Below, piece after piece: positions 6,254 to 62,599 of a DNA stretch of 64,000 bases (position 1 is the first letter of the stretch; each line of letters starts with the position of its first letter). The DNA is taken from the IMG/VR virus record IMGVR_UViG_3300032265_001317, positions 28,159 to 92,158 of that record; one strand, given 5' to 3'. The notes under the pieces were generated by a model. That model searched no databases and had not been told where the DNA came from. It saw only the letters and a list, made by a program, of their open reading frames with translations. The stretch is from a virus. The position numbers and the translations under genes are program-made.

Positions 6254-6452
6254 AAACCCAGGGTTTTTCTCCCTTCTTTTGGCCTTTTATTACATTTTCA
6301 AACAATCAAACCGCGGCAATTTTGCGATCCTCGTCCTGTAAAGGATAGTGATTGAGTACTCTTAACGGCGAGAGATTTCCGTCCCTGCGATCCGAGATCC
6401 AGGTTTAGAGCGCATGAAGTTGGCCTGCGCAAGCTGTTACCGTCTAGTGAGC

Positions 6453-10184: not shown

Positions 10185-10213
10185 AGTTTAACAGGCTGAT
10201 TGGGCAATGTCAA
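10185..10213 (-). promoter_or_regulatory. Host-type (sigma70-like) promoter for gene 47
   Basis: Minus strand TTGACA (10208-10213), 17-bp spacer, TAAACT (10185-10190), overlapping the gp55 stop codon. It would let 47/46 be expressed early, independent of the gp55 promoter. Confidence 0.5.
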
Positions 10214-11124
10214 GCGGTAGGAGTAGATTCTTCGTCCTCTTCTTCAGGTACATCTTCGCTTTTTGGCATACGCATATTTTTGTATAGCTCTGCTTGCCGT
10301 GCAATTTCTTCTGCGTATTCTTGGCTGTTCTGTCTAGTCATACTCGGTGCTAGTCCTGCTTCTTCTAACAAATCATCTCGGATGTTTTGACTTTTCTTTT
10401 CAATGTTTAGAATTCTGGTAAAGCTGTTTGTTACTGCGGCAGTATAGTAAGCAAACGGATTATCGGACTTTGATTCATCAAACTGTAGACCAATCTGACT
10501 TAGCTGTAGGATAGCCTGCCCCTTCATTTCGTCAACATAGGTGTATCCTCTCCAGTTGCTACGCTGTGCGTAACGCTCTGATAATTTGATATACATTTTG
10601 CCTAAGTTTTCTGTAATGCGTCCGTGATCCTTGCTGAAGTGTCCGGTATCTAGCGGACCTTTCCAGTGACTTTTGCCAACGCATATTAGTTCGTCTTGGT
10701 CATCAAATTTCCAATGTTGATACGGAGGAAAGTTCACTTTATCGTGTGCATCTGCTGTAGTTTTAGTGGTCTTTTTACGACCCGGTGCTAGCGGAATATG
10801 TTCGAAAGTCATTATTCTAATTACAATATCAGTTTTGGCAATTGTTTTGTAATCTGGAGTGACTTCGAGTAATTTGGTTTTTTTATCTCCGGCAAGTCTT
10901 AGTTTATTAAATGCTTCGATGCCTAGTCTTTTTGCCCGAGCACGTTTAGCCTCTGCAATGGTGCGTATGTTGATTTTGTCTAAATTTGGAAGAATTAAAT
11001 CGTGTTGACTGTATTCTGGTTTTTCATAGACTGAAAATGAACATTTGCTACGGTGTATTTCTGCTAATAAATCTTTGTTGTTTAAGTACTTAACTTTTCT
11101 TGTGGTTACAATGGGTGTGGACAT
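10210..11124 (-). CDS. 55: Late-transcription sigma factor gp55
   Basis: Sigma factor that directs host RNA polymerase to late promoters (NATAAATA in this genome). The C-terminal part (about residues 195-270) matches gp55-type proteins: YVDEMKGQAILQLSQIGLQF, NPFAYYTAAVTNSFTRILN and EKKSQNIRDDLLEEAG. At 304 residues it is much longer than T4 gp55 (185); the extra N-terminal ~110 residues are basic and unrecognised. The 55-47-46 order is as in T4. Its promoter (11152-11179) has a host-type sequence with a palindrome between -35 and -10. The C-terminal tail is acidic (EDVPEEEDEES). Confidence 0.85.
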   Translation of the reverse strand: MSTPIVTTRKVKYLNNKDLLAEIHRSKCSFSVYEKPEYSQHDLILPNLDKINIRTIAEAKRARAKRLGIEAFNKLRLAGDKKTKLLEVTPDYKTIAKTDIVIRIMTFEHIPLAPGRKKTTKTTADAHDKVNFPPYQHWKFDDQDELICVGKSHWKGPLDTGHFSKDHGRITENLGKMYIKLSERYAQRSNWRGYTYVDEMKGQAILQLSQIGLQFDESKSDNPFAYYTAAVTNSFTRILNIEKKSQNIRDDLLEEAGLAPSMTRQNSQEYAEEIARQAELYKNMRMPKSEDVPEEEDEESTPTA

Positions 11125-50687: not shown

Positions 50688-51133
50688 TAAAAAATCTCAG
50701 TTCTTCCGTCATCACGTAACGCTCTGTTAACATATCCAGATCCTCTACGTTCCATTTCGACACCAGATTCGGCGCCAACATTTCTACATAGTTCTTGGAA
50801 CCACAAGTCGACTATTTCTTCTTCTGTGACTCCAATGTATCCGGCCTCTGTTAATTGTAACACAAAGTATTCATTCCAGTCAAGTTCAAAAAAACCATTG
50901 CGTACATTGTCCTTGTTTACTTTGGTTTCCAACACCGCAATGTATGGTTCTTTTTTTTCAGTGGCTAATTCTTTAGGAGTCAGTTTGGATACCCGTTCTG
51001 CTTCGGCGGCACGTTCAGCGGCAACAGTGGCTTCCTCTGCTAGTTTTTTAGCAGACTCTGCTTGCTGTAATGATTCTTCGATTCTGGCTTCAATTTTATC
51101 TATGCCAAACATTTTTTTAATAAATCTATTCAT
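50687..51133 (-). CDS. Conserved phage protein with coiled-coil N-terminus
   Basis: 148 residues from the ATG at 51133, which overlaps the queE stop as TAATG and has GGGGA 5 bases upstream (a GTG four codons earlier is the alternative). Residues about 15-50 form an Ala/Glu coiled coil. The C-terminal domain (VNKDNVRNGFFELDWNEYFV, EEEIVDLWFQELCRNVG) is conserved in aquatic T4-like phages; role unknown. Confidence 0.65.
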   Translation of the reverse strand: MNRFIKKMFGIDKIEARIEESLQQAESAKKLAEEATVAAERAAEAERVSKLTPKELATEKKEPYIAVLETKVNKDNVRNGFFELDWNEYFVLQLTEAGYIGVTEEEIVDLWFQELCRNVGAESGVEMERRGSGYVNRALRDDGRTEIF

Positions 51134-51981
51134 TAAGTTCCCCACTCATTTTTAAATAATGGCACTTGTAAACGGTCACTATAACGTAGTCCGTTTTTCA
51201 TAGCCAACAATGCCACATTCTTATTGTTCATTGCATATACGCTTTCTACACCACCTACCGGCATCAAGTATACGTGTCCTTTAAATCCTGCTGAACGATA
51301 TGCGGCAATGGCACATTCTGCATCTGCAAAGTCTTGTTCTGTGGCAATAACAAACTTCAAATATGCTGTGCCATAATTTTCATAGTCGCAAACTACTTCT
51401 GGTTTGATAGCATCATCCCACGGTTCACCTGAACATGGAAGTTTAGCACTTACACTAAAAGTAACTTCTCTTTCATCGCTACCAAATGCCCAGTCTTTTA
51501 AGTATTCTTTAAATGCAGTAGTAAGGCGCATTGAACCATTAGTTTCAAATGTAATTTCTTTCAAGTCTGCCATCTTGGGATGGCTCAACAAGTCCGGATA
51601 ACATTTTTGCCAACCTAACAATGGTTCACCTCCGGTAATAACAAGATGAGCTTCGCCCCATTCGTTATCGGGAAGCATTTCCATAATGCGTTCTACAATA
51701 CCATCAGTTTCGACCAATGGGCTAAGATGTTTAAAACGTGCATCCCAGCTAGCATAGCTATCGCAACCAGTTGATACCAATGGCAGTTCATTGTAATCTT
51801 TAAACTCTACAATGCGTTCTGCGATAGCTTCTCTCTCATTAGATAGTTCACCACGCGGCATACCAAAACCTTGACAGGTAAAGTTACAACCAAATGTACG
51901 CAAGAACACACTTGGTACACCCATGTAGCGTCCTTCTCCTTGTATACTATAAAACAATTCTGCTAATTTAATTTTGCTCAT
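51133..51981 (-). CDS. queE: 7-carboxy-7-deazaguanine synthase QueE
   Basis: Radical-SAM enzyme that converts 6-carboxytetrahydropterin to 7-carboxy-7-deazaguanine. 282 residues. FYSIQGEGRYMG (about 10-21) and ITGGEPLLG are the family marks. The iron-sulphur cysteines are C32, C36 (CNFTC) and probably C73 (TGCDSYASW), so about 36 residues are inserted before the third ligand. This is a variant, not the compact CxxxCxxC form. With the QueD-like protein (55856-56305) and DpdA (56847-58403) it forms a deazapurine pathway for DNA modification. Confidence 0.9.
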   Translation of the reverse strand: MSKIKLAELFYSIQGEGRYMGVPSVFLRTFGCNFTCQGFGMPRGELSNEREAIAERIVEFKDYNELPLVSTGCDSYASWDARFKHLSPLVETDGIVERIMEMLPDNEWGEAHLVITGGEPLLGWQKCYPDLLSHPKMADLKEITFETNGSMRLTTAFKEYLKDWAFGSDEREVTFSVSAKLPCSGEPWDDAIKPEVVCDYENYGTAYLKFVIATEQDFADAECAIAAYRSAGFKGHVYLMPVGGVESVYAMNNKNVALLAMKNGLRYSDRLQVPLFKNEWGT

Positions 51982-56835: not shown

Positions 56836-56864
56836 AGTTTACTTGATTATTTGTTATCTGTCAA
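56836..56864 (-). promoter_or_regulatory. Host-type promoter, possibly giving a leaderless mRNA
   Basis: Minus strand TTGACA (56859-56864), 17 bp, TAAACT (56836-56841), overlapping the dpdA stop. The ATG at 56829 is 6 bases beyond the -10 element. Confidence 0.45.
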
Positions 56865-58403
56865 CACTTCTTGTTCCAGAGCCATTAATTTTTCATCGTC
56901 CATATCTTCTGTGTCAATTTCGTCTGGACTTGTAACTTCCTCTACTTCGAACAAACTATGGAATTTGTTACGAGCAGGACCACCTTGTAATCGAGCACCA
57001 TCTAAACTGGTAATAAAAGTTGTAGCTTCGTCAATTAATGCAAATGCTTCAGCTTTAGTCTTAGTTTCAAACAATTCATTTATGAACTGTTCAAAATATA
57101 GTATGCTACGTGGCACGTATGGACTTGGCTCGTCAATTGACATATTTTTACCATTGAGTCTTGCAAAGTCTCTCCATGTCTTTTTAAATCTAGCATGTTC
57201 AATATCTGCTAGATGATTTGCACGTTGTACCGCTACGATATGGCAATAGACATTATGACCCATATATAACGCATAGCTAAAACTATCCCAAGAAGTTTTA
57301 CCTTCTTTACCGATCTTATTTAGATCGCCAGGAGCATAATAGCAAATATCGCCCATTGTTAACCTGCGGCCGAATTCACTTTCGAAGGGGAATGGGATAT
57401 CGCTTCCTGCAAGTGCTTTGTTATCTGGGGCTTTGTCCATAACAGTACTCCACTTTTTGGGCGTGTGGATTGGATTTGTGTATGCAAGTCCGTGCGCTGT
57501 TGCGACAAACGGTGAGGCGCAATCAAAAGAGATGGTAAGTTCTTCATTAATATGTTTCCTAATTTGTCGTTGAATTGATGTCAAATAGCAAGACCAGTCT
57601 AGCTGTGCCGTACCCAAAAAGTGAATCCAGTTCTTGCCTGTTAGCAAGCCGTCTTCACGCATGGTCATTATACGCTTTAGTGTAATATCCATTTTACACA
57701 TATTCACGCCTCCGAACGCCCAACCTTCTGCGGCCTTGTCGCCCCAAATGGCCGGATCGCTGAATTGTTTAACTCCTTGATACCACTGTTCAGCAGTATC
57801 CCAGTCGCTACCTTGTAGCACATTTAAGAATTTGGTTTCACCTAGTCTACGAGTCAACCAGTATTCATTATTATAACATGTTTTATCTAAGCAGTCTTGG
57901 AAACTGGTTAATCCTGTGCGTTCTCTATTAACAGGATCGCATGCCCAACTAGGAACGTCTAACAACATTGACCAATCTGCTGTACACTCTAGCCATGCTA
58001 AAATATCATCACGGATTTTATTAGCGGCCTTGCCTTTAAAATCCTTCCAGTCGAATTTAAGAATACCCTTACCAATCTGGTATCCGCCCGAGTCGCCAAG
58101 GATCATGGTTTGTTTACGATCTCGTTGTTGCAACATACTATCCTGCGTCCAGGCCTTGGTCAAGTCCAACTGTGCATGACCTGCAGAATACAAGGCATAC
58201 TTGTAGACAAAATATCCTTCTTCTGGATTAAGAAAGTTCATACCTTCGATGCCGCGATCAAATCCTTTAGGAATACGTTCTTTTGGAACAAATTCTTCTA
58301 ATCTTTGTTTAGCAACATAGGTACTATAAAAACTACTGATAGCTGGCAAATACACAGCATAGTCTTTTTGTAATGGAGTTAGGTCAACTGGTGGTCTTGT
58401 CAT
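56847..58403 (-). CDS. dpdA: DpdA-type DNA guanine transglycosylase
   Basis: TGT-like enzyme expected to exchange guanine in DNA for a 7-deazaguanine base. 518 residues. TGT-family landmarks: ILGDSGGYQIGKG (D104 and the SGGYQ loop), LLDVPSWA (D149), FLNVLQG, GWAFGG, HFLGTA and SFDCASP (D294, candidate nucleophile). The zinc site of tRNA TGTs is not evident, and the C-terminal ~150 residues are additional, ending in an acidic tail. QueE and a QueD-like gene in the same block support DNA rather than tRNA modification. Exact DpdA subtype not determined. Confidence 0.82.
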   Translation of the reverse strand: MTRPPVDLTPLQKDYAVYLPAISSFYSTYVAKQRLEEFVPKERIPKGFDRGIEGMNFLNPEEGYFVYKYALYSAGHAQLDLTKAWTQDSMLQQRDRKQTMILGDSGGYQIGKGILKFDWKDFKGKAANKIRDDILAWLECTADWSMLLDVPSWACDPVNRERTGLTSFQDCLDKTCYNNEYWLTRRLGETKFLNVLQGSDWDTAEQWYQGVKQFSDPAIWGDKAAEGWAFGGVNMCKMDITLKRIMTMREDGLLTGKNWIHFLGTAQLDWSCYLTSIQRQIRKHINEELTISFDCASPFVATAHGLAYTNPIHTPKKWSTVMDKAPDNKALAGSDIPFPFESEFGRRLTMGDICYYAPGDLNKIGKEGKTSWDSFSYALYMGHNVYCHIVAVQRANHLADIEHARFKKTWRDFARLNGKNMSIDEPSPYVPRSILYFEQFINELFETKTKAEAFALIDEATTFITSLDGARLQGGPARNKFHSLFEVEEVTSPDEIDTEDMDDEKLMALEQEVLTDNK

Positions 58404-59563: not shown

Positions 59564-62233
59564 TTACTCAAAGTCAAATAAACTATTGAACGTGTTACTT
59601 TGGGTAGTGGACTCTAAGTCCCATTCCAACACGCCAATAAGATTATCTAATTTATTGTTAATAATTGTTGTTTCCATTTCTGCATGATCAAATGGTAATT
59701 CTTGGAACCACTTGGGCAAACGCAATTCGTCTACCGGGTAAGCAATACTGGTAAAGCCCAATGGATTTGCTTTCATTTTACAAACAATAACTTTCATACC
59801 ATCTACAATTTGTTGACTGTACTTGTCACCGTTCATGCGTTTTAAGGTATTCCAGTTAATGCTGGCACGAACGTGTCCGGGCATATTGGCCTTGCCTTGT
59901 TTTCTTTCTTTTTCCTGATACTCTGCAATGTTGTTGGCACGTTTAGGTGAACCTTTTTCCCAACCTGGTCTAGATTTAAATTCAGTTCTAAACTCGCCAA
60001 TGCGTTCTAGAATATCTGCTTCCTGCGCATTGTTAAGAACTTTGGTAAGAATCTCTTCCAAAAACTTCTGCATGAATTCTGGAGTGTCACTGCGCTTCAA
60101 ATCCAATCCCATGGCCTTGATCTTGCCCGGTTTCCCTTCTATGTCACTGCGTTTGCCTTCTTTATCGTAGTACAATACTGCATAACGCTTCTTGGTAATG
60201 AATAGGCCTTTGAGTGCAACAATTTCACGACCGGCTTTGATAACTTCACCACGACTCTTTGGACAATGATGTGCATCTGACATAAACTGTGCAAAGGTAC
60301 TGTTAACCTCTTCGGCAATGGTATCGTACAGTTGAACAACGGTATCTTTGGTCCACGGAATCTCGCCTTTGTCAATTTCTTTCTTTAGTACGTTGTATGC
60401 GCTAAAGTATGCAGAGTCTGTGTCGCCATAGATAATAGCTTTACCGACGTGATCATATTCACCTGTAACTACTTCATTTATCTTAGCGGCCATGTGCCGA
60501 GCAATTCCACGCCCGGTAAGGGTGGTTGACTGACCAATGCGATTGTCAAAGAAACGACAGCCCATGTTGAGAATAGCACCATACAGGCTGTTAAGATTAA
60601 TCTTTTTAACAAGTTGGCGTTTATCCCAGTATTCTTCTTCAATTTTATTCTCCGCTTTGATAGCATCTTTTAGTTTGGCCTGCATTTCTTTACGTTCAGC
60701 ATACCAGCGTTTTAGTAGTCCGGGAATAATACCTTCAAACTCGTGTGTAAAGATTGTACCGTTAGCACTTAGCATCCAGGGCTTGTTGCTTTCGTAGATT
60801 AACTCGTAGATCTCTGCGCCACTCATAACGCTAACTTCTCCGTTTTCCCACTCTACTGTGATATCATTGGCACGATCTCGATTCATAACAAACTCATACT
60901 CATTGGCACCAAACTTACCTTCCCAAGCCGCCGCAAATGAATTACCTTTGGCAATTTTTGCATCAATTTCTGCTTGTGTGTAATCTTGACGCAACTGTCC
61001 GATAATAGTTTCCGGGCCCATGTTCAGCGCACGAATCACACTCGGATACAAACTGTTAATATCCATTGATCCGATGTAGTCATGTAGACCTTTTTTAGGA
61101 TACGCAACATACGCACCAGCGGCCTGATTAACTGCGTTTTCATCTCGTTTGGGTCGACTTGGGACAATTAGTCCTCTGTGATGAGCTTCGTTTACAATGG
61201 CCTGTTCAGTTACTGCTACCGCACCCATTGTGGTTTGTAGCAACACTGTACATTCATGTGCAACTGTGTTAGCAAGATCGATAAACTTTAATTTCTTATC
61301 CAATTTATCCAACAAGGCAGTATCTTGTCTGTTGTATTCGATAAACTTACGGAAGTCGTTGTTGTAAAGTTGATCCAGTGTACCTTCGTACACCGTTTTG
61401 CTTTCTCCTACTTCCATTTCTCCAATAGCATCCAGTCTGTAAGTGTGACGTTCTTCGTATGTGTACTTGCGGTACAACTCGAGACTGTCCAAATGAACAC
61501 GACCAACCAGGTCATAAGTAATAGCCGTTTTTCCATATTTTTCGTACTCGCGCTTCTTGGGCATTTGACCCCATAGACATAGTCTGCGTGTGTCTTCTTT
61601 GCTTAGAACTTTAGTGATACGGTTAACTGTGTAAGGCATATCAAATCCTTCACTATTCCAACCGCTTAGGATATCTGCATCTTCGATTAGGTTAAGAAAC
61701 GTGTCCAACATGTCTGCTTCATTGTCGAACAAAATTGTATTAGGAAAGTCTTTGACCTGTTCTTGTGCCTGCTCCATGGTAAGAGTTTTTGGTGGCATCG
61801 CCAAACATACCAAGGTATTCATCCATTGCAGGTGAACAGCAATCGCAGTAATTGGCATGAAAGCATCTTCTGGCGAAGCATAGCCACGTTCTGGATCAAA
61901 GTCCACCTCGATATCCCAGAACGCTACATTTAGTTTTGGAGCATCTTTGCCTAGATAGTTTTCTTCCAAGCAACGGAATACCGGATTAATATCGCTTTCA
62001 AATAAACGATGTCCACTATGTATGCGTTGTTCTTTTGTGAATTCTTTAAAGCTCTTAGCAGTTACTTTGCTAAGGTTATCTCCAAAGATTGATTTGAATT
62101 TGCCTCTTTGATCTGGATAATAAAACAGATACTTGGCAGGGAACTCTTGATAAATCCTTCCCTTTTTAGGATCTCGTTCAATGACATAGATAATGTCCTT
62201 CTCACGATCCCATCGTGCGTCTACATAACTCAT
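59564..62233 (-). CDS. 43: DNA polymerase gp43 (family B)
   Basis: Replicative polymerase, 889 residues (T4: 898). Exonuclease motifs FWDIEVDF, SGWNSEGFDMPY and YNRQDTALLDKLD; polymerase motifs DINSLYPSVIRALNM (A), KKINLNSLYGA (B) and YGDTDSAYF (C). The C-terminus NSLFDFE fits the clamp-binding tail of this family. No intron or intein. The leader carries two hairpins (62244-62289) that suggest translational autoregulation. Confidence 0.97.
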   Translation of the reverse strand: MSYVDARWDREKDIIYVIERDPKKGRIYQEFPAKYLFYYPDQRGKFKSIFGDNLSKVTAKSFKEFTKEQRIHSGHRLFESDINPVFRCLEENYLGKDAPKLNVAFWDIEVDFDPERGYASPEDAFMPITAIAVHLQWMNTLVCLAMPPKTLTMEQAQEQVKDFPNTILFDNEADMLDTFLNLIEDADILSGWNSEGFDMPYTVNRITKVLSKEDTRRLCLWGQMPKKREYEKYGKTAITYDLVGRVHLDSLELYRKYTYEERHTYRLDAIGEMEVGESKTVYEGTLDQLYNNDFRKFIEYNRQDTALLDKLDKKLKFIDLANTVAHECTVLLQTTMGAVAVTEQAIVNEAHHRGLIVPSRPKRDENAVNQAAGAYVAYPKKGLHDYIGSMDINSLYPSVIRALNMGPETIIGQLRQDYTQAEIDAKIAKGNSFAAAWEGKFGANEYEFVMNRDRANDITVEWENGEVSVMSGAEIYELIYESNKPWMLSANGTIFTHEFEGIIPGLLKRWYAERKEMQAKLKDAIKAENKIEEEYWDKRQLVKKINLNSLYGAILNMGCRFFDNRIGQSTTLTGRGIARHMAAKINEVVTGEYDHVGKAIIYGDTDSAYFSAYNVLKKEIDKGEIPWTKDTVVQLYDTIAEEVNSTFAQFMSDAHHCPKSRGEVIKAGREIVALKGLFITKKRYAVLYYDKEGKRSDIEGKPGKIKAMGLDLKRSDTPEFMQKFLEEILTKVLNNAQEADILERIGEFRTEFKSRPGWEKGSPKRANNIAEYQEKERKQGKANMPGHVRASINWNTLKRMNGDKYSQQIVDGMKVIVCKMKANPLGFTSIAYPVDELRLPKWFQELPFDHAEMETTIINNKLDNLIGVLEWDLESTTQSNTFNSLFDFE

Positions 62234-62243
62234 ATTTTTCTCC

Positions 62244-62261
62244 TACCGTTTATGGCCGGCA
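62244..62261 (-). promoter_or_regulatory. Leader hairpin next to gene 43 ribosome site
   Basis: Minus-strand RNA TGCCG-GCCATAAA-CGGTA: 5-bp stem (one G-U) with an 8-base loop, directly followed by GGAG and the ATG at 62233. Size and placement match the gp43 translational operator of T4/RB69. Confidence 0.6.
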
Positions 62262-62271
62262 ACCTTCACTG

Positions 62272-62289
62272 TGCGATTTATGGCTCGCA
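62272..62289 (-). promoter_or_regulatory. Second gene 43 leader hairpin with identical loop
   Basis: Minus-strand RNA TGCGA-GCCATAAA-TCGCA: perfect 5-bp stem and the same 8-base loop as the hairpin at 62244-62261, but a different stem sequence. A possible promoter (TTGATA, 16 bp, TACTAT; 62302-62329) lies just upstream. Confidence 0.6.
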
Positions 62290-62308
62290 GAACCGTTCTC
62301 AATAGTAT

Positions 62309-62599
62309 TTAACTCAACATACGTATCAATCCAACAGAATCGATACTTACTAACAATATATAGTTAGCCAACATGCCAAAAGATTTCCTAGTCCAACTAG
62401 CCCAAGCATACATGGCACAACCAGCAATCCAAATAGGATAAAGAGCCAAAAGCGGTGGATTGGGGACTGTACTTGCCATAGTAATACTACATCCAATGCT
62501 AATAGCCCATGCAAGAAGCTCAATAACAAAACGAACTCGGTTAGACTTAAAGTCATCTCGTATCCAATCGACTGTGGGTTTAAATAAATCTATAATCAT
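62309..62599 (-). CDS. Small membrane protein
   Basis: 96 residues with three hydrophobic segments (about 23-43 FVIELLAWAISIGCSITMAS, 50-68 LLALYPIWIAGCAMYAWAS, 75-92), so probably an inner-membrane protein with two or three spans. Similar small membrane proteins precede gene 43 in other aquatic T4-like phages; role unknown. Confidence 0.65.
   Translation of the reverse strand: MIIDLFKPTVDWIRDDFKSNRVRFVIELLAWAISIGCSITMASTVPNPPLLALYPIWIAGCAMYAWASWTRKSFGMLANYILLVSIDSVGLIRMLS

Follow-up and report, generated by a model that had tools for sequence, protein, structure and literature searches.

Two hairpins in the leader of gene 43

The window, that is, the whole 64,000-nucleotide stretch of viral DNA analysed here, carries a gene for a family B DNA polymerase (gp43) on its minus strand. 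The product was identified by phrog_262 (E 8.5e-201) and Pfam DNA_pol_B, with 1clq as the best solved chain. Upstream of this gene, at 62294-62244 of the minus strand, lies a leader for which a tandem of two hairpins with a shared loop and dissimilar stems had been described; both were present when the leader was parsed on that strand. Hairpin 1 is TGCGA-GCCATAAA-TCGCA (62289-62272) and hairpin 2 is TGCCG-GCCATAAA-CGGTA (62261-62244). They are separated by 10 bases, and the 8-nt loops (GCCAUAAA, at 62284-62277 and 62256-62249) are identical. Hairpin 2 is followed without a gap by GGAG, and the ATG is at 62233. The features of the locus are as follows.

62306..62311, minus strand: TAAATA, probably the core of a late promoter of T4 type, with conserved spacing in the leaders
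62292..62294, minus strand: unit 1, 5′ strand (GGU) of helix S1, pairing with loop GCC; its G-C/A-U switches, 9 of them counted on the tree, are compensated throughout the 145 leaders
62272..62289, minus strand: unit 1 hairpin, S2 UGCGA/UCGCA, loop GCC (S1 3′ strand, 62284-62282) and AUAAA (62281-62277)
62262..62264, minus strand: unit 2, 5′ strand (GGU) of helix S1
62244..62261, minus strand: unit 2 hairpin, S2 (U)GCCG/CGGU(A), loop GCC (62256-62254) and AUAAA (62253-62249)
62240..62243, minus strand: Shine-Dalgarno (SD) sequence GGAG, directly adjoining unit 2
59564..62233, minus strand: gene 43-like family B DNA polymerase, 889 aa

The leader reads, 5′ to 3′, GAGAAC GGU UC UGCGA GCC AUAAA UCGCA CAGUGAA GGU U GCCG GCC AUAAA CGGU A GGAG AAAAAU AUG. 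The triplet GGT stands 2 nt upstream of the unit 1 stem and 0-1 nt upstream of the unit 2 stem, and can pair with the loop. The earlier note was right about the two hairpins and their placing; it overlooked this GGT:loop helix, and the hairpins are not of the simple T4 type, each unit being very probably an H-type pseudoknot. S2 of unit 2 in such a pseudoknot is probably 4 bp, with U62261 as a connecting loop.

Taken alone, GCCATAAA is no rarity: the window has 3 copies against 3.9 expected. The leader is the sole place in the 64 kb where two 5-bp hairpins with an identical 8-nt loop occur within 60 nt, and such pairs arose in none of 60 first-order Markov simulations.

Conservation among relatives

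A search with the polymerase gave 80 IMG/VR loci of 82-99% identity. Their leaders have two hairpins of like kind with varied stems; the exception, L151, is outside that set. A protein-free scan of DNA was carried out with one stem-loop pattern only, GATCAGCCAYAADTGATC. All but three of its matches lie about 57-68 nt before the start of a gp43, and these gp43s are of 58-88% amino-acid identity. The three exceptions are L172, inside another gene, and L202 and L251, with the first unit before an inserted gene. Among the uncultivated relatives, 145 of 152 distinct leaders parse as two units, and in two further leaders (L261 and L192) unit 2 has a mismatch adjoining the loop. It had been suggested that structure and loop sequence are both under selection, a suggestion that a lack of conservation in relatives would contradict. 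Comparison of the relatives' gene 43 leaders bore it out, as loop and pairing are both conserved and both helices covary.

A covariance model of the unit found the gp43 leader in each of 13 records of 92-327 kb and no second convincing site in them. Weak matches of the model in L481, L483, L491-L493 and L495 were set aside, their appearance being unlike that of regulatory units. No relative was found in genome_contigs. Directly upstream of many gp43s of 60-65% identity, no such leader is present. Such units were likewise not found in isolates with 41-51% identical gp43 (Phosso, Atu_ph07, GAP32, 121Q, SCTP-2, XbC2, Vibrio 2.275), nor in the leaders of PA5oct (gp43 54% identical over two thirds) and XacN1 (32%).

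Compensated changes in a second helix

A GGY triplet is found 5-9 nt before each loop and is complementary to the first three loop bases, GCC. These bases would thus supply the 3′ side of an additional helix and make each unit an H-type pseudoknot. The common plan is S1 (only 3 bp, GGY:RCC), L1 (mostly 1-2 nt), S2 (4-6 bp), the S1 3′ strand, L3 and the S2 3′ strand, with 0 bases between the S2 5′ strand and the S1 3′ strand. L3 is A-rich (NNAAD) and usually 5 nt long, and its AA is nearly invariant.

In the 145 leaders (with the script failing to place unit 2 in one of them), S1 pair 1 is G-C or A-U without exception, and pair 3 is U-G, C-G or U-A and never C-A. No true exception at pair 1 was seen among about 400 units; the apparent mismatches in that set came from spurious hairpins or from register errors of the script, GGU being correctly spaced. 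In L585, one unit combines GGU with UCC, a mismatch at S1 pair 3. In a blind test, viral_contigs was scanned for loops with U as third base, the upstream bases being left free. The loop variant GCU occurred only behind AGU instead of GGY, in 15 of 15 distinct gp43 leaders. The violating combination AGU...GCC (pattern AGTNNGATCAGCC) had 0 matches in viral_contigs, and a scan for a second loop base other than C found no gp43 leader.

On the gp43 tree, 9 switches in S1 were counted, each of them compensated (sign test p 0.004), a count that may exceed the independent mutational origins since leader cassettes may recombine. The AGU/GCU units have differing stem contexts (GAUCA, GGUCA, GUGUAA, UGUCA, UGUCG, GUGUGA), which despite possible recombination still give several distinct cases. 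With both helices taken together, 97.3% of cells in 41 distinct units are paired, against 80.8% in shuffles. Covariation in these units is 0.579 against 0.269, a value reached in 0 of 500 shuffles, and it collapses to at most 0.114 when the registers are slid.

In a sister clade, with gp43 60-65% identical, S1 of unit 1 is GUC:GAC, AGU:ACU, GGU:ACC or AGU:GCU, and S1 of unit 2 is AGU:GCU. These swaps include the middle pair; thus all three S1 pairs vary with the pairing kept, although a few sister-clade unit-1s appear to retain only two of them. AGU/GCU is found in unit 1 where unit 2 stays GGU/GCC, which indicates pairing within a unit. Pairing between units, with the GGU of one bound to the loop of the other, was rejected since the AGU/GCU switches are confined to a single unit.

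Plain T4-type hairpins, with the GGY...GCC match coincidental or of other origin, were also considered. A single-sequence fold indeed yields just the two hairpins, at an unremarkable energy (z 0.26), with a program unable to form pseudoknots. The exceptionless compensation at pair 1, the blind test with its 0 violators and the replacement of the whole S1 helix in the sister clade make this explanation extremely unlikely. The interleaved helices S1 and S2, each with compensatory changes, argue strongly that every unit folds as a pseudoknot, which we regard as highly probable.

Where S1 position 3 is C, L3 mostly ends in G (14 of 16), a possible tertiary contact. In one lineage (L614, L626, L631, L644 and others), unit 1 seemingly has a bulged S2 base adjoining S1 (GCG-A-G/C-CGC), with S1 kept.

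Tandem geometry and the putative promoter

The distance from loop to loop is 27-30 nt in 144 of the 145 parsed leaders, and 29 in 89 of them. A short unit 2 spacer (5) goes with a long linker (7-9), and a long spacer (8) with a short linker (4-6). On the gp43 tree the two lengths move oppositely with loop spacing constant, a result to which the same recombination caveat applies. In 136 of 144 leaders, 0-2 nt separate unit 2 from the start of the SD sequence. One of the 144 has the same inner stem sequences in both units.

Of the 145 leaders, 119 have TAAATA 14-20 nt before S1 of unit 1, with G at -6 in 82%. This placement agrees with the spacing of T4 late promoters, by which the mRNA would start close to G62300, some 6 nt ahead of unit 1. 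A late sigma factor (phrog_12791) is encoded at 10210-11124 on the minus strand of the window. TAAATA is under-represented window-wide (38 copies, 101 expected); several copies stand just upstream of window genes, as T4-type late promoters would.

Such a start would suit pseudoknots that serve as a stabiliser at the 5′ end of a short leader, protecting the message from decay with no ligand involved. Protection alone, however, needs neither a unit 2 kept beside the SD nor a fixed loop spacing, and the conserved AA in L3 suggests recognition. This explanation is therefore considered very improbable.

Comparison with known phage operators

T4 gp43 binds a hairpin operator in its own leader, with no evidence for a pseudoknot there (PMC3014915). 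Translational autoregulation has one of its founding examples in this operator, which the first SELEX experiment had as its target (PMC3014915). The likeness to the T4 operator in place and size, pointed out in the earlier note, stood up on analysis. As in T4 and RB69, the element precedes the same gene, a T4-like family B polymerase gene, directly upstream and near the ribosome site, with a stem of about 5 bp, a loop of 8 nt and an A-rich loop core. The loop of the RB49 operator is also reported to contain UAAA (PMC3014915).

The T4 operator served as a control and was recovered (AGCCU-AAUAACUC-GGGCU). The other control loops were AAUCACUC in KMB17, AAUAACUC in PECP20 and AAUUACUC in HMGUkp2. 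All are single hairpins, and no S1 partner was found for any of the four; in seven other T4-like isolates no T4-type hairpin was found. In the four genomes with a T4-type operator it is one hairpin with a 4-5 bp stem and an 8-nt loop AAUNACUC, lacking S1, whereas the window has two units with the loop GCC-AUAAA and a covarying S1. The element would therefore work like that class and is not a member of it. Most likely, the leader is analogous to the single gp43 hairpin of T4, but doubled and pseudoknotted.

The T4-type gene 32 operator resembles the leader in being a pseudoknot before a phage replication gene with translational autoregulation; it differs in gene and protein (PMC3014915). At gene 32 a single pseudoknot is reported, 67 nt ahead of the start and parted from it by an unstructured region (PMC3014915). 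A literature search, with most subscription journals outside its reach, turned up no polymerase gene described as having a tandem pseudoknot.

A candidate translational operator

The gene 43 leader is most likely a translational operator consisting of two H-type pseudoknots in tandem, and a cis-acting translational role for it is likely. By its position, the proximal folded pseudoknot would lie inside the ribosome landing site, and its stabilisation would thus block initiation. The ligand might be the polymerase itself, as the T4 precedent and the presence of the element only before gp43 suggest; free gp43 would then repress its own synthesis. Autogenous control fits the single target, the polymerase's own gene, in the 13 long records, as in T4. 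On balance, gp43 seems somewhat the better choice of ligand, and a tandem-pseudoknot operator under autogenous control by gp43 is considered reasonably probable. Two units could permit cooperative or graded repression.

Binding of such an operator by another phage or host protein (a single-stranded DNA-binding protein, a RegA-like repressor or a ribosomal protein) has parallels, T4 gp32, which represses its own mRNA via a 5′ pseudoknot, and ribosomal protein S15 both using pseudoknot operators (PMC3014915). A regulator acting in trans would, however, often have more sites than the one before gp43 in the 13 long records, and the T4 precedent at gene 43 is the polymerase. Another protein as ligand is therefore thought unlikely.

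A large clade of uncultivated phages thus has a doubled pseudoknot leader at gp43, its helices supported by covariation. The natural variants provide changes of helix, loop and spacing with function presumably kept. Two questions come within reach of direct tests through this leader: the means by which a polymerase recognises its own mRNA, and possible cooperation between two sites.

A riboswitch as an alternative

A tandem small-molecule riboswitch (for a 7-deazaguanine or a nucleotide, for example) controlling polymerase translation was weighed against the operator. In preQ1-I and other H-type riboswitches an H-type pseudoknot has an A-rich third loop near the SD, and the pseudoknot with A-rich L3 that abuts the SD here resembles this architecture. 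QueE-like and TGT-like genes are present in the same genomes, in the window as follows.

51133-51981, minus strand: QueE-like protein of the radical SAM type (phrog_2076), scoring below the NCBIfam cut-offs; present in 10 of 12 relatives
56847-58403, minus strand: TGT-like gene, 518 aa, with DSGGYQ and SFDCASPF motifs, in 12 of 12 relatives

The 518-aa TGT-like protein has no sequence match in Pfam, PHROG, NCBIfam or PDB. Its low-confidence structure model (pLDDT 47) gave tRNA-guanine transglycosylases as the top four Foldseek matches (E 0.06-0.13), so that the product is possibly a divergent 7-deazaguanine transglycosylase. The protein is also found in phage PA5oct (43%), where it is a hypothetical protein.

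The preQ1-I pocket needs a loop between the S2 5′ strand and the S1 3′ strand; here the two are joined directly, leaving no loop for such a pocket, and the regulated gene is a DNA polymerase. S1 bases are exchangeable provided that they pair. Over the whole window Rfam gave nothing relevant at gathering score, and over 62200-62420 still nothing relevant up to E 10. In guanidine-II (mini-ykkC) RNAs, too, a gene is preceded by a tandem pair of small hairpins that share a loop and differ in their stems; there the loops interact with each other, whereas in the gene 43 leader each one pairs with the triplet upstream of it. The motif was not found before the QueE-like or the TGT-like gene, which leaves a 7-deazaguanine riboswitch only a minor possibility. 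Riboswitch control in general is quite improbable, and still less probable is a metabolite-sensing tandem minimal pseudoknot that gates polymerase synthesis in a virus with 7-deazaguanine-pathway genes.

Separately, the Rfam search gave a strong match to Polynucleobacter-1 RNA (121 bits, E 8e-26) at 6300-6435 on the minus strand of the window, between genes of this phage record.

Genes inserted before gp43

In three relatives, genes are inserted upstream of gp43, each overlapping it by 4 nt.

L202, 3222-3866: sulfotransferase-like gene
L251, minus strand: sulfotransferase-like gene
L151, about 1361-1501: small ORF

In L202 and L251 the gene is set between the putative operator and gp43; it has no match in Pfam or NCBIfam, and sulfotransferase-like is an interpretive name. 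Loss of the operator in L151 was considered and rejected, as both units are kept upstream of the small inserted ORF. Since the inserted cistrons overlap gp43, its translation could stay coupled to the operator. The inserted genes look unrelated, and insertion at one common junction has apparently occurred at least twice.
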